From: Rhizobium sp. BK650
GTDB lineage: Bacteria > Pseudomonadota > Alphaproteobacteria > Rhizobiales > Rhizobiaceae
Assembly (NCBI RefSeq): GCF_014195325.1
Contig: NZ_JACIBK010000003.1
Span: forward strand, 186,001-250,000
Length of the DNA stretch: 64,000 nucleotides
Direction: 5' to 3'
The notes under the pieces are model-generated. The model searched no databases. It was not told the origin of the DNA and was given only the letters and a program-made list of their open reading frames with translations. Positions 14,251 through 60,136 of the stretch are shown in pieces; the stretch's first letter is position 1, and each line of letters starts with the position of its first letter. The position numbers and the translations under genes are program-made.

Positions 14251-14326
14251 GTGCTGACGGCGGATTCTGGCTCGTTTCGGAGCCGCCGGTAGGGCATTCC
14301 GATCTTGCCCGAATATGACAAATGCA

Positions 14327-14457
14327 AACCCTCCCCAACCCCTCCCCACAGGTGGGAGGGGCTACCCCGGCGGCACCGCCTCGCTTCTTTCGAAACGCCG
14401 GAAGTTTGTTAAGCCGGCGCGGCAGGTTAAGCCCCTCCCACCTGTGGGGAGGGGTCT
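14327..14457. repeat. Palindromic intergenic repeat, family B copy 1
   Basis: Arms CCCTCCCCAACCCCTCCCC... and CCCCTCCCACCTGTGGGGAGGGGTC enclose a conserved middle with TTTCGAAACGCCGGAAGTTTG. Copies in this window: 15616-15760, 21553-21688, 51421-51602, 55785-55930, 59987-60136. The flank GAATATGACAAATGC is shared with the copy at 15616, so the repeat unit extends outside the GC-rich arms. Confidence 0.8.
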
Positions 14458-15615: not shown

Positions 15616-15760
15616 GACCCGCCCCAACCCCTCCCCACAAGGACCCCACAAGGTGGAGGGGCTAGCCCGGCCCGCACAGCGTCGCTTCTTTCGAACGCCC
15701 AAAGTTTGGAAAGCCGGCGCGGCAGGTTAAGCCCCTCCCACCTGTGGGGAGGGGTCTTTT
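15616..15760. repeat. Palindromic intergenic repeat, family B copy 2
   Basis: Arms GCCCCAACCCCTCCCCACAAGG and CCCCTCCCACCTGTGGGGAGGGGTC. One arm carries a short internal duplication (CCCCACAAGGACCCCACAAGG). The flank GAATATGACAAACGC matches the copy at 14327. Confidence 0.78.
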
Positions 15761-17914: not shown

Positions 17915-18162
17915 TTCAACCTCCAGGGTGACGGCGAAACTGATTGATCTTGGGCATGGTCGGCCGTCGGATGCCCTGGATTGCTACGCCTGACGAAGCT
18001 CCAGGACGAGTTAATTGTCGTAAGGCGTCGTCAATTTGCATGAGGTGTCGAGACGTCAGGAGTTCGCCGGGCTAACGCCGCCCCTGTACCTGTTCACACG
18101 GGTCTAGCGGGGCCGTCTGCTCTCCCGTGATTGATCAGAAAATCAGCAAGGTAGTGCGCTGT

Positions 18163-18285
18163 GGCCCCCTCATCCGCTCTTCGGGAACCTTCTCCCCATT
18201 GGGAAGAAGGGGTGTCGTTGCCGCCGTGTTTGGCTCCCCTTCTCCCCCCGGGGAGAAGGTGGCCCGAAGGGCCAGATGAGGGGCT
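18163..18285. repeat. Palindromic intergenic repeat, family A copy 3
   Basis: CCCCCTCATCCGCTC... CCTTCTCCCC / GGGGAGAAGGTGG ... AGATGAGGGGCT. It fills most of the gap between the start of the hydrolase gene (17914) and the 3' end of the methyltransferase gene (18339). The remaining 250 bp (17915-18162) hold no gene. Confidence 0.75.
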
Positions 18286-18338
18286 CCGGGCGCCACCTTC
18301 CGGTCCTCTTGCGCGAAGCTGTGCGCCGTCAAACCCAT

Positions 18339-19457: not shown

Positions 19458-19652
19458 GGCACCCTCCATAGATGCGTGCGCCCCAGCCCGATACGTCGAC
19501 CTGCCGCAGATTCTAGGCCGGGGCAGCGGACAGTCAATGCTGCATTCGGGTGAGGGCGGGTGAGGGCGAGGCGAGGGCGTTCTGAACATCATGGCGGGCG
19601 GCGGCGTGCAGCTTAAAGCTCCGCGCGGTCAAATAGGCCTCGACAAAAACAG

Positions 19653-19689
19653 AAAAGGGCGGCTCCTGACGGTGAGAGCCACCCCTTTT
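19653..19689. other. Unassigned hairpin with A/T-rich ends
   Basis: AAAAGGG (19653-19659) pairs with CCCCTTTT (19682-19689), and GGCTC with GAGAGCC inside. The region 19458-19909 has no gene other than the direct repeat at 19751 and the promoter of the Hint gene. This could be the terminator of an unlisted small RNA on either strand, or a leader structure. Confidence 0.35.
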
Positions 19690-19750
19690 CCTACCGACTC
19701 TATGGCGCCAGCAGGACTGTAACTAGCGGACGAAGCGCGGCCCGCAATCC

Positions 19751-19796
19751 GACCAAAGTCCGGTGCCTTTAGAGACCAAAGTCCAAAGCCTTAGAG
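19751..19796 (+). promoter_or_regulatory. Tandem 23-bp repeat upstream of the Hint-domain gene
   Basis: GACCAAAGTCCGGTGCCTTTAG followed at once by GACCAAAGTCCAAAGCCTTAG: two near-identical head-to-tail copies (each with an internal GAC..GTC dyad), about 115 bp before the start at 19910. Possible regulator-binding sites; no regulator is adjacent. Confidence 0.4.
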
Positions 19797-19909
19797 AGAA
19801 TGCACTCTCCCTTTTCGGTAGATACTACCGCTGTTCTGCGAAATTGTATGGGATTGAACCTATTGTAAAATTCGCCGGTGTTACTGTTTTCAAAAAAAGG
19901 ACACCAGGT

Positions 19910-20791
19910 ATGTCATCCACGGAAGATCCGAAGCTGCCACGCGATGTCGCGCGCAGACATTTTCTAGGTGTTACTGCCGCCGCCGGCGCTAAGCTTGCTG
20001 GCTTTGCAGCCTTGGCGACGGCAATTTCGACGTCTCCCATAAGCGCCATGGGGCGCCGTTGGGGGCGGGGCGAATCTGGTGGACATGGAGGCTGGTGGGG
20101 TGGACACGGAGGCTCCCATGGCAGTCGTCCCGATGGAGCCTCTGGTGGCGGTGGCGCAAACTGCTTCCTGCGCGGGACGGCGATCCTGACGGATTGCGGT
20201 GAAAAGCCGGTCGAGGATCTGCGCATCGGCGACCGCGTTGCCCTTCCCGACGGCAGCGCTCGTCCGATCAAGTGGATCGGCCGCCAAGCCTTCAAGAGGA
20301 GCGGCGCGCGCTGGCATAAAGACGTCGTGCCGATCCGCGTCTCCCGCGGCGCGCTGGACGGTCGCACACCACATTCCGATCTCTACCTGTCGCCCGGACA
20401 TGCGCTGTTTCTGGACGGCGTTCTGATCCAGGTGAAAGAACTGGTGAACGGCAAGACAATCGCACCGGTCATTCCGGCCGACGACACCGCGATCGAGTAT
20501 TACGCCCTCATGCTCGATACGCATGAAGTCATACTTGCCGAAGGGGCAGCCGCCGAGAGCTTCCATCTCAAGGATAGCAATCACGAGATCTTCTCGAACT
20601 TTGCCGAATATAAGCGCCTCTATGGGGAAGAGAAGGTCGTGATGGCATCCTATGCGCCAGTGCTGGGAGGCGGCTGGATGCACTTGAAAGCGCTTCTCCT
20701 GCTTGGCGTTTCTCCACTCGTGCCGAGGCGCGATCCGCTCGGCGAGGCCTGTGAGAAGATCAATGCGCAAGCCAAGGAGCTGTCGTTCTGA
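19910..20791 (+). CDS. Exported Hint-domain protein
   Basis: 293 residues from ATG 19910 (AAGGACACCAGGT upstream). Residues 10-47 have RRHFLG plus a hydrophobic stretch, a probable twin-arginine signal. A Gly/His/Trp-rich linker (48-84, with GGHGGWWGGHGGSHG) leads to a Hint_2-type domain that begins at C85 (NCFLRGTAILTDCGEKPVED) and continues with LRIGDRVALPDGSARPIKWI, then SPGHALFLDG. Hint domains catalyse N-S acyl shifts in inteins and hedgehog proteins; in this bacterial family processing has not been shown to my knowledge. A hairpin at 20815-20838 follows. Confidence 0.85.
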   Translation: MSSTEDPKLPRDVARRHFLGVTAAAGAKLAGFAALATAISTSPISAMGRRWGRGESGGHGGWWGGHGGSHGSRPDGASGGGGANCFLRGTAILTDCGEKPVEDLRIGDRVALPDGSARPIKWIGRQAFKRSGARWHKDVVPIRVSRGALDGRTPHSDLYLSPGHALFLDGVLIQVKELVNGKTIAPVIPADDTAIEYYALMLDTHEVILAEGAAAESFHLKDSNHEIFSNFAEYKRLYGEEKVVMASYAPVLGGGWMHLKALLLLGVSPLVPRRDPLGEACEKINAQAKELSF

Positions 20792-20814
20792 CAAGCCGCA
20801 CGGCTGAGCGTTAT

Positions 20815-20838
20815 ACCCTGCCGCTGCAGCGGCAGGGT
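20815..20838. terminator. Palindromic hairpin after the Hint gene
   Basis: ACCCTGCCGCTG / CAGCGGCAGGGT, a perfect 12-bp arm palindrome with no spacer, 24 bp after the stop. No U-run follows on the + strand, so it would be a weak intrinsic terminator. Confidence 0.5.
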
Positions 20839-20951
20839 GATCCTGACGAACTACAAGGCCATGACGACTTCTCCGCAGTCACTTCTGCAGAACAAGCTTC
20901 TCGCGCTATTGCCACCTGCCGATGACCAGCAGGTTGCGGTCTCGGGCGTGA

Positions 20952-21212
20952 CTACCAGCCTTCGGCCCTGAAGTTCGCAAGAAGAGTTGCCTCCAGCTCA
21001 TCGCAGACGGCAACGTAGTGGTCCAAAATCATTTCGTGATCGGAGGTGTCGCTCTGCCACTTCGCTTTTGCCATGAGGGCATCACCATATGTTTCGATAA
21101 GCTCGGTCCAACGGGATGCTACCGGCACGTAGGGCCTCAGTTCAGGATGCCTGTCGAGCAAGGATTTCAGACCAATTTGGAAACTCTCTGAGCTAGCTTC
21201 TTTCTCTGCCAT
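20952..21212 (-). CDS. Small soluble protein of unknown function
   Basis: 86 residues from ATG 21212 (MAEKEASSESFQIGLKSLL). Predicted all-helical, with LDRHPELRPYVPVASRWTEL and DHEMILDHYVAVCDELEATL. No membrane segment, no recognised domain. Longer in-frame starts are possible but read through non-coding DNA. It is convergent with the Hint gene. Confidence 0.65.
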   Translation of the reverse strand: MAEKEASSESFQIGLKSLLDRHPELRPYVPVASRWTELIETYGDALMAKAKWQSDTSDHEMILDHYVAVCDELEATLLANFRAEGW

Positions 21213-21267
21213 GTACCTACCATTTCGCCTTCTCCCGCTGTTTTCGGGGACCAAACCTGAATGCGAG

Positions 21268-21369
21268 ATGAAGAGTGACGCGCTGCCGGATGCGCTCGCA
21301 AGGTTCTTCGACCGCATGCGCGCGCGGCCCTCGGAGATCCAGGCGCTTGCCGAGGAGGGACTGGGCTGA
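21268..21369 (+). other. Possible coding remnant of 33 codons
   Basis: Plus-strand reading MKSDALPDALARFFDRMRAR then PSEIQALAEEGLG and TGA looks like the helical end of a real protein, and the frame stays open upstream of the ATG without a start. It may be the 3' remnant of a lost gene or chance. The rest of 21213-21552 holds nothing recognisable. Confidence 0.22.
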
Positions 21370-21552
21370 TTTGGTGGCCGGGCACGTTCTGATCCGGGAA
21401 CCGCCCTCCAGGCAAGTCAGGACAAACCGTATCCACTTATCCATCGTACAGGTCTCTTTCCACAGCATCGGCAAAGCTCTCCTTTGCTGTCGGAAGTGTC
21501 CACTATGTCTCCGGTCTACACTGTCCACTAAGTCGCCGGTTCGGACCCAGGG

Positions 21553-21688
21553 AAAACCCCTCCCCAACCCCTCCCCACAAGGGGGAGGGGCTTGAACTGC
21601 CGCACCCGCTCTCCAAACTTTCGACGTTTCGGAAGAAGCGAGGTGGTGCGGCCAAGTTAGCCCCTCCCACCTGTGGGGAGGGGTCTTT
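21553..21688. repeat. Palindromic intergenic repeat, family B copy 3
   Basis: CCCCTCCCCAACCCCTCCCC ... CCCCTCCCACCTGTGGGGAGGGGTC with the middle AAACTTTCGACGTTTCGGAAG. A complete copy, in the 21370-21924 gap, which otherwise holds no gene. Confidence 0.8.
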
Positions 21689-21924
21689 GCTTCCGGAGTC
21701 CCGGAACGGTCTAAGGCTTCTGCCTGAGCGCATCAAAGACGCGACCTTTGGCTTTCGAAAGCGCTTGACGTAGCGAAGCAGAATGCTCAGATGAATCATC
21801 CCCCCGTGCCTTGAAACTGCCTTGGAACTCATGACTTAAGAGACTGTTCGGACTCTGGCGTTGAGACGATGCCGACGTCCCCCGGCTGACTGGGTAAGCG
21901 GTGCTTTTTGAGGAGCCTGTCATC

Positions 21925-22365
21925 ATGAAGATTTCGTCCAGATTTCGTTTGGCAACCGTTGCCGTTATCGCCGCTACGGGCGTCGGCTTTGCGAGCGGCG
22001 CGCATGCAGATAGCGGTACGATCCGCTTTTCCGTCTACAAGGCCGCCTTCTTCGTCGGCGGCTCCGGAGGCGACGGCACACTGACCTTCCATGGGCACAA
22101 ATATCCGATTTCGATCGGCGGCATCTCGGGCGGCCTCGCCTTCGGTGCTTCGAAAACCTATTTCCAGGGCACCGTGCGCAACATTCGCCGCGCTCAGGAT
22201 GTGGCGGGTGTCTACGGTGCAGCGGGCGGCGGAGGCGCGGTCGGCAAGGGAGCCCAGGTTATCGTCATGACCAATAACAAGGGCGCCGAGCTCGAACTGA
22301 CAGGCAGGCAGGTCGGCCTTCAAGTCAACGCCGATATCAGCGGCATGAGCATCTCGGTGAAGTAA
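21925..22365 (+). CDS. Exported glycine-rich small protein of unknown function
   Basis: 146 residues from ATG 21925 (GAGGAGCCTGTC upstream). Signal peptide 1-29 ends GAHAD. The mature part (GTIRFSVYKAAFFVGGSGGD, GTLTFHGHKYPISIGGISGG, then VRNIRRAQDVAGVYGAAGGG) is a Gly-rich beta structure with a final VGLQVNADISGMSISVK. It recalls rhizobial periplasmic proteins of the DUF1134/EipA kind, but I am not confident of that. An E-family repeat follows the stop. Confidence 0.8.
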   Translation: MKISSRFRLATVAVIAATGVGFASGAHADSGTIRFSVYKAAFFVGGSGGDGTLTFHGHKYPISIGGISGGLAFGASKTYFQGTVRNIRRAQDVAGVYGAAGGGGAVGKGAQVIVMTNNKGAELELTGRQVGLQVNADISGMSISVK

Positions 22366-51420: not shown

Positions 51421-51602
51421 AGACCCCGCCCCAAACGTGACCGGGGTCGAGCCACGGGTCTCGACCCGTCCTTCGGACCCCCACAAGGGGGAGGGGCTTA
51501 ATTTGCTGCACCGCTTCCCACACCCTCAGCGTTTCAAATGGGCGAGGTGGGTGCCACGAAGAGTCCCTCCCCCTTGTGGGGAGGGGTTGGGGAGGGGTTT
51601 TG
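51421..51602. repeat. Palindromic intergenic repeat, family B copy 4, with nested palindrome
   Basis: The left arm of this copy is split: after GACCCCGCCCCAAAC comes an extra block of about 45 bp carrying its own dyad (GGGTCGA / TCGACCC), then the repeat resumes at CCACAAGGGGGAGGGGCTTA. It ends GGGGAGGGGTTGGGGAGGGG. No gene lies in 51354-51670. Confidence 0.75.
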
Positions 51603-51670
51603 ACGAGCCTTTCAGGTGTCCAAGCCGCCGTCCGCAGTGAGGATGGTTCCTCCTACGTCCTTGCTACATC

Positions 51671-55751: not shown

Positions 55752-55784
55752 AACCTGCGGGCAGGGCAGTTCGGTGGACCGGGC

Positions 55785-55930
55785 AAAGACCCTCCCCAAC
55801 TCCTCCCCACAAGGGAGAGGGACTAACCCTGAGCACTGCCTCGCACCTCCCGCAACGCTGAATATGGGGAAGCGGAGTGCGGCAAGTTAAGCCCCTCCCA
55901 CCTGTGGGAAGGGGTTGGGGAGGGGTCTTT
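55785..55930. repeat. Palindromic intergenic repeat, family B copy 5
   Basis: GACCCTCCCCAACTCCTCCCC ... CCCCTCCCACCTGTGGGAAGGGGTTGGGGAGGGGTC. It fills the gap between the convergent chemoreceptor and RBBP9-like genes. Confidence 0.78.
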
Positions 55931-59986: not shown

Positions 59987-60136
59987 AAGACCCCGCCCCA
60001 AACCCCTCCCCACAAGGGGGAGGGGCTTAAGTTGCCGCACCCGCTTTCCAAATTTTCGACGTTTCGGAAGAAGCGAGGCGGCGCGGCCGGGTCAGCCCCT
60101 CCCACCTGTGGGGAGGGGTTGGGGAGGGGTCTTTTT
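59987..60136. repeat. Palindromic intergenic repeat, family B copy 6
   Basis: GACCCCGCCCCAAACCCCTCCCC ... CCCCTCCCACCTGTGGGGAGGGGTTGGGGAGGGGTC, then CTTTTTCTC, so it may also terminate transcription from the SRPBCC gene. Confidence 0.8.

Follow-up and report, generated by a model that had tools for sequence, protein, structure and literature searches.

The window analysed here is a 64,000-nucleotide stretch of Rhizobium sp. BK650 DNA, and the open reading frame under study, with its parts and its neighbours, is listed in Table 1. The open reading frame, its coordinates, its length, the RRHFLG motif (residues 15-20), the GGHGGWWGGHGG stretch in the linker and Cys85 are all as claimed in the preliminary description. 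The same frame remains open upstream to a GTG at 19763 (342 residues), and protein homology with relatives starts at the ATG listed and not farther upstream. Nine pairwise comparisons over residues 85-293 indicate purifying selection (dN/dS 0.08-0.28), which, together with full-length relatives in many genomes, shows that 19910-20791 is a real gene. Directly past the stop codon, at 20815-20838, lies a perfect 24-base palindrome, ACCCTGCCGCTGCAGCGGCAGGGT, without a T run.

Table 1. Features of the Hint_2 gene, its upstream region and its neighbours (window coordinates).
Feature	Position	Strand	Remarks
CDS, predicted Tat-exported Hint_2 protein, 293 aa	19910..20791	+	ATG 19910, TGA 20791
Predicted Tat-type signal peptide, residues 1-46 (ARRHFLG ... 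SPISA/MG)	19910..20047	+	RR-x-[FI]-[LI] in 47/47 relatives
Gly-rich segment, residues 47-84 (38 residues)	20048..20161	+	length and composition hypervariable family-wide
Constrained tripeptide Gly82-Ala83-Asn84 before Cys85	20153..20161	+	family mostly G-[AP]-[NQMKR]
Hint_2 domain, residues 85-220, opening with Cys85 (nucleophile position)	20162..20569	+	Pfam, model, structural match
Block B, Ser161-Pro-Gly-His164 (S/T-x-x-H)	20390..20401	+	S161 and H164 in 47/47
His205 (block F)	20522..20524	+	47/47; invariant in 15-sequence Hint_2 alignment
C-terminal tail, residues 221-293 (73 residues)	20570..20788	+	moderately conserved; mostly low-confidence in model
Palindromic site CTACKCCCTTTTSRGTAG of the subfamily, degenerate (3 mismatches)	19804..19821	+	
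Candidate promoter by eye (TTGTAT-N16-TAAAAT)	19844..19871	+	similar in relatives
Neighbour, methyltransferase		-	
Neighbour, alpha/beta hydrolase		-	
Neighbour, 121-aa ORF		-	
Neighbour, 154-aa exported-looking ORF	21901-22365	+	no family match over any cut-off
Neighbour, short-chain dehydrogenase		+	

At the loci inspected, no neighbour recurs beside the gene, save the DNA of the 154-residue ORF, which lies in another order near the copy of Rhizobium sp. BK196 (L040). The DNA of this ORF is also 81-87% identical in many Rhizobium genomes among the matches listed. The gene and about 100 bp upstream of it are found at unrelated loci with differing flanks; at least ten loci (L033-L039, L043, L048 and L061) share a common location, and the window locus lies elsewhere. 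In one genome (G033, L070) a 2.2 kb segment corresponding to 19554-21735 and including the Hint gene is absent, and the flanking genes are 22 bp apart. A transposable unit was considered and rejected: no terminal repeats could be discerned by eye at the boundaries, at least ten loci sit at one location, L040 carries part of the window flank in rearranged form, and other segments near the site also differ in G033. The reading that we kept is that of an accessory gene that duplicates and relocates.

A palindrome (CCTACTCCCTTTTGAGTAGG at its best; CTACTCCCTTTTGAGTAG) lies 100-106 bp before the ATG, with at most four mismatches, in 18 of the 31 Tat-type loci with readable upstream DNA; L035, L042 and L047 are among the palindrome regions noticed. 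The 18 loci also have about 100 bp of upstream DNA in common, a candidate promoter included. The 13 loci that do not have it comprise all examined non-Rhizobium members and several Rhizobium paralogs. Exact CTACKCCCTTTTSRGTAG occurs eight times in 60 Rhizobium genomes, each time upstream of a copy of this gene (in seven cases the fetched stretch has the whole gene; the eighth lies at a contig edge, where only residues 1-24 are encoded), and the reversed control pattern also has eight matches in these genomes. With one mismatch there are four matches, one at the second BK650 copy and three that have no such gene. The idea that the palindrome defines a regulon was rejected, as exact CTACKCCCTTTTSRGTAG marks no other genes in the 60 genomes. 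A scan for consensus sigma-70 promoters returned none upstream of the gene.

The subfamily to which the protein belongs spans the Rhizobiaceae and Phyllobacteriaceae. Of 37 genomes of the genus, 15 have relatives (best E 8.2e-89 or better), BK650 included, one of the 15 (G033) showing contig-edge pieces only. Family-wide, with the threshold set at E 1e-60, 12 of 151 genomes have a relative; they represent 7 of 109 genera, and BK650 is again counted. The 14 named relatives retrieved in one of the searches all belong to Rhizobium. Further relatives reside on plasmids of Rhizobium, Sinorhizobium, Pararhizobium and Phyllobacterium, and public plasmid records label relatives 'Hint domain-containing protein'. 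Across the class, PF13403 is patchy, with five of 190 genomes passing the Pfam cut-off (BK650 among them), and two Alphaproteobacteria in that set are rich in it, with 17 and 13 matches. Many of these matches lie in open frames of 260-440 residues, often with 130-230 residues ahead of Cys1, and 13 of the 17 in the richer genome fall in stop-to-stop frames shorter than 450 residues. The proposal that Hint is rare as the main domain of an exported bacterial protein is therefore doubtful: the patchiness favours it and the two rich genomes speak against it, in a comparison that counts Hint_2 frames by domain and length, whether exported or not. No match to the window protein was found in phages and viral contigs, and we set aside a phage origin of the gene; other Hint_2 domains are present in viral contigs.

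The 6.4 Mb BK650 genome holds two copies, that of the window and one at G000:C15:87258-88145 (L047), which are 91% identical, identity climbing from 50-70% upstream to 96-100% in the 3' half. Within-genome copies are close in BK650 (G000, dS 0.07) and in G027 (L048/L049, dS 0.05) compared to 0.58-1.33 against copies of other species, and the flanks of both pairs differ, which suggests gene conversion or recent gene-sized duplication. As a counter-case, the copies in G001 (72-78% at the DNA level) and in G008 (67%) are divergent, so that no general rule emerges. A third match in BK650 (G000:C14, E 2e-4, residues 8-86) was discarded as a low-complexity match to a Gly/Ser-rich ORF in which no Hint domain was seen by eye. 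The Rhizobium mesoamericanum copy (L045, the same as L010) has a stop shortly ahead of the usual C-terminal end.

The claim that Cys85 opens a Hint_2-like domain is borne out by Pfam, whose Hint_2 family (PF13403) matches residues 85-220 with 143.5 bits (E 8.4e-42; cut-off 28.4 bits) along 2-145 of the 147 profile positions, and by the predicted model, which places Cys85 at the nucleophile position. The tail (residues 221-293) has no Pfam match, and the 293-residue protein has no match in NCBIfam at E up to 1. The preliminary description had also called the N terminus Tat-like, and the sequence agrees: a twin-arginine motif, which recurs in all 47 relatives, precedes a hydrophobic stretch and a signal peptidase site (SPISA/MG), both assigned by eye, and TatC is encoded in the genome, so that the protein is a predicted Tat substrate.

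A first model built with 13 close relatives was unusable (mean pLDDT 37.6). The model used here (madc93ba9e08f) covers residues 75-293 and was built with 18 sequences, among them five Hint domains of viral contigs that were added to the set; it reached a mean pLDDT of 67.7 and a pTM of 0.62, with 69-91 in the Hint-core blocks and less than 50 for 59 residues in the tail region. Foldseek retrieved BIL domains, inteins and hedgehog among the solved structures that match it. By VIA-align the Clostridium thermocellum BIL domain (2lwy) scores Z 14.4 (rmsd 2.2 over 117 residues), within 1 of several inteins, and the hedgehog autoprocessing domain (1at0) scores Z 12.4 (rmsd 2.5 over 114 residues), with model residues 11-144 superposed on hedgehog 258-401. 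Cys85 falls on intein residue 1 in several of the structural alignments and on residue 258 of 1at0, the catalytic Cys of hedgehog. The predicted model thus has the HINT fold with the nucleophile at the first residue of the domain, as in the HINT superfamily. A profile of 15 Hint_2 domains searched against solved structures likewise returned 2lwy as best match (E 2.9e-5), and a PDB search with the single sequence had no hit better than E 0.19; neither search found a solved structure of a Hint_2 protein. Among predicted viral proteins, Foldseek ranked giant-virus Hint proteins best (Pithovirus, Cafeteria roenbergensis virus).

For residue conservation we compared 47 distinct Tat-type members and 29 other Hint_2 proteins, a non-random sample drawn from fetched loci (Hint-core matches at E 1e-20 whose alignment begins no later than query position 3) from which identical sequences were removed and the G033 contig-edge fragments dropped, with the early-stop R. 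mesoamericanum copy counted unchanged; the statistics ignore shared ancestry. RR-x-[FI]-[LI], Cys85, Thr90, Thr94, Ser161, His164, His205 and Glu216 are invariant in all 47 Tat-type members. Cys1 is present in all 76 proteins, a count partly favoured by the choice of sequences whose match reaches the first residues, and 74 of the 76 have the [S/T]-x-x-H of block B. An alignment of 15 Hint_2 sequences, in which the other 14 are 30-60% identical to the window protein, retains Cys1, the His of blocks B and F and the final Glu. In L020 and L021, two further Hint_2 proteins of Rhizobium, Arg replaces the block B His (SPDR), and both are possibly inactive. In the sequences compared, the block B His can be lost elsewhere in Hint_2, yet it is kept in the Tat-type subfamily.

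The Asn expected at the end of a splicing or C-terminally cleaving intein or BIL domain is lacking: position 217, at the end of the structural match (model residue 143-144, or 217-218 of the protein), is Ser in 21 and Thr in 26 of the 47 Tat-type members and Asn in none, and the invariant Asn230 lies 12-13 residues past that end. The catalytic Cys, Ser-x-x-His and His are intact. Of the His/Asn set named in the preliminary description, the Asn at the end of the Hint core is missing, as it is in hedgehog.

The segment before Cys85 varies greatly. Across the 47 members it spans 13 to about 48 residues, with a Gly fraction of 0 to 0.67, 0-4 His and 0-3 Trp; the lengths come from an automatic A-x-A rule (raw values 13-53) that is off by some residues in several rows and that cut the window row eight residues too early. 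At least one Trp occurs in 43 of 47 linkers, usually close to the start (GRRWG and similar). Besides the window copy, Rhizobium sp. BK196 (L040) has the GGHGGWWGGHGG stretch, which is absent from the other 11 aligned sequences; the second BK650 copy does not have it. As a family feature the Gly/His/Trp linker proposed earlier thus falls away, and only Gly-richness, usually a Trp and the junction tripeptide are kept. One Tat-type member (L154, G388) has a linker that, as cut automatically, contains no Gly and is rich in Pro, Val and Arg, which fits a spacer role. Because its composition and length are poorly conserved, the linker looks like a spacer and not like cargo, and the idea of a linker that is itself released or anchored finds no support in the hypervariable sequences of the 47 members.

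The junction is constrained although the linker is free to vary, which indicates that positions -3 to -1 are under selection. In the Tat-type members, position -3 is Gly in 40 of 47, position -2 is Ala or Pro in 40 of 47, and position -1 is Asn, Gln, Met, Lys, Arg or His in 46 of 47, compared to a frequency of 0.147 for the same six residues over positions -13 to -2. After thinning at 60% identity, 11 of the 12 sequences left have Asn, Met, Lys or Arg at -1. In the 29 non-Tat Hint_2 proteins, which have at least 119 residues ahead of Cys1 in the open frame, position -1 is instead Pro, Val, Ser, Ile, Leu or Ala in 28, and one of the six residues of the Tat-type class in a single case. From these alignments we infer that the variable Gly-rich part may be a spacer letting a folded domain follow the Tat signal, and that the constrained tripeptide may be the substrate strand of the Hint site.

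Taken together, the protein reads as a Tat-exported Hint_2 autoprocessing domain with little before it but a signal and a spacer, a reading to which we give an even chance. Cys1 and [S/T]-x-x-H in a core that ends with no Asn lead us to expect N-terminal cleavage only, and hedgehog-type cleavage at Asn84-Cys85 is the predicted best reading. In PMC7664689, hedgehog is described as undergoing the N-S acyl shift only, and BIL domains as yielding mainly cleaved products. We infer cleavage, its site, its location in the cytoplasm or the periplasm and its consequence as follows. The Tat signal would target a pre-folded Hint domain to the periplasm, the variable Gly-rich segment spacing the signal from that domain, of which Cys85 begins the first strand. 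Cys85, aided by Ser161-x-x-His164, would convert the Asn84-Cys85 peptide bond to a thioester that water or another small nucleophile would resolve, as in the N-terminal cleavage of hedgehog and BIL domains, and the Hint domain with its tail would be parted from a signal/spacer stub. The Tat pathway carries folded proteins, so cleavage and export could compete. Asn at -1 is reported to hinder cleavage in one intein, and by analogy the Asn84-Cys85 junction could be set for slow cleavage or for none.

This last point leads to the strongest competing explanation, a catalytically silent or very slow Hint fold that serves as an exported periplasmic binding or structural domain, with the Gly-rich segment as a plain Tat spacer. 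The -1 class so unlike that of other Hint_2 proteins could disable the reaction, the N-terminal segment holds no conserved cargo, and conservation extends to the tail (its majority fraction is 0.66, that of the Hint part 0.74); we nevertheless regard a silent domain as rather unlikely, since the invariance of C85, S161, H164 and H205 in all 47 members is unexpected if catalysis is lost. Release of a C-terminal effector, the tail, in the manner of polymorphic toxins would draw on the same conserved tail and on the fact that Hint domains occur in contact-dependent inhibition and related toxin systems. We consider it very improbable: position 217 is Ser or Thr and not Asn throughout, the tail matches no Pfam family and is conserved where toxin tips vary, and the loci inspected have no common immunity-like neighbour.

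Hedgehog-like transfer, in which the tail would select a specific nucleophile in the periplasm to take over the Asn84 thioester, with the Gly-rich peptide remaining attached to that nucleophile, fits the constrained -3 to -1 junction and agrees with the superposition of the model on hedgehog. A conserved tail follows the Hint domain, at the position of hedgehog's sterol-recognition region as given in PMC2362128. The peptide to be transferred is, however, hypervariable, and no common partner gene is found around the loci inspected. A search of the genome with the squalene-hopene cyclase N-terminal model (PF13249) also gave no match, which makes a hopanoid adduct in place of the sterol unlikely, and we dropped that idea. 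A Tat-exported, tail-guided peptide transferase that couples an amine or lipid of the periplasm to the Gly-rich peptide is accordingly a long shot in our estimate, as is its milder form, in which the timing of cleavage relative to export would set whether the Hint body ends up in the cytoplasm or the periplasm. If true, the transferase reading would amount to a hedgehog-like envelope modification in rhizobia.

Set against known systems, the window protein shares with the Hint_2 family (PF13403) the domain, Cys1, the block B and block F His and the final Glu, and differs from the 29 non-Tat proteins in its Tat signal, its spacer and its -1 residue class. Its likeness to BIL domains is that of the best fold match and the best profile match, whereas Ser or Thr in place of Asn at 217 means that neither C-terminal cleavage nor splicing is expected. 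The hedgehog C-terminal autoprocessing domain resembles it in fold, Cys1, T/S-x-x-H, an ending that lacks Asn and a tail after the Hint domain; in contrast to hedgehog, the protein is bacterial, predicted to be Tat-exported and devoid of a folded N-terminal ligand, and nothing points to a sterol or other adduct. Burglin 2008 (PMC2362128) describes bacterial proteins whose C-terminal domain is Hint-like, from Stigmatella, Myxococcus, Reinekea, Photorhabdus, Serratia and Yersinia; secretion signals are predicted for some of them, and they have a conserved N-terminal region with two Cys. The window protein, with only a spacer in its N-terminal part, is set apart from them by that description. PF13403 also appears in a marine-bloom survey (PMC12487129). 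A literature search, which left most subscription journals outside and is weak evidence on this point, listed no study of a Hint protein exported by Tat or of what PF13403 does, and none with experiments on a Hint_2 protein. The domain type is known, and the form with export signal and spacer seems undescribed. New here are the -1 residue class, opposite to that of the 29 other Hint_2 proteins, and the palindrome some 100 bp ahead of the gene. Some Alphaproteobacteria have many Hint_2 proteins, and the subfamily, as a small case that has no folded N-terminal domain, suits the study of self-cleavage, of the -1 residue and of the interplay between Tat export and autoprocessing.

Elsewhere in the window, apparently intergenic short repeats, direct and inverted, occur at 14326-14455, 15618-15755, 18154-18293, 21552-21684, 51479-51606, 55784-55929 and 59987-60133, and presumably resemble rhizobial intergenic mosaic repeats.
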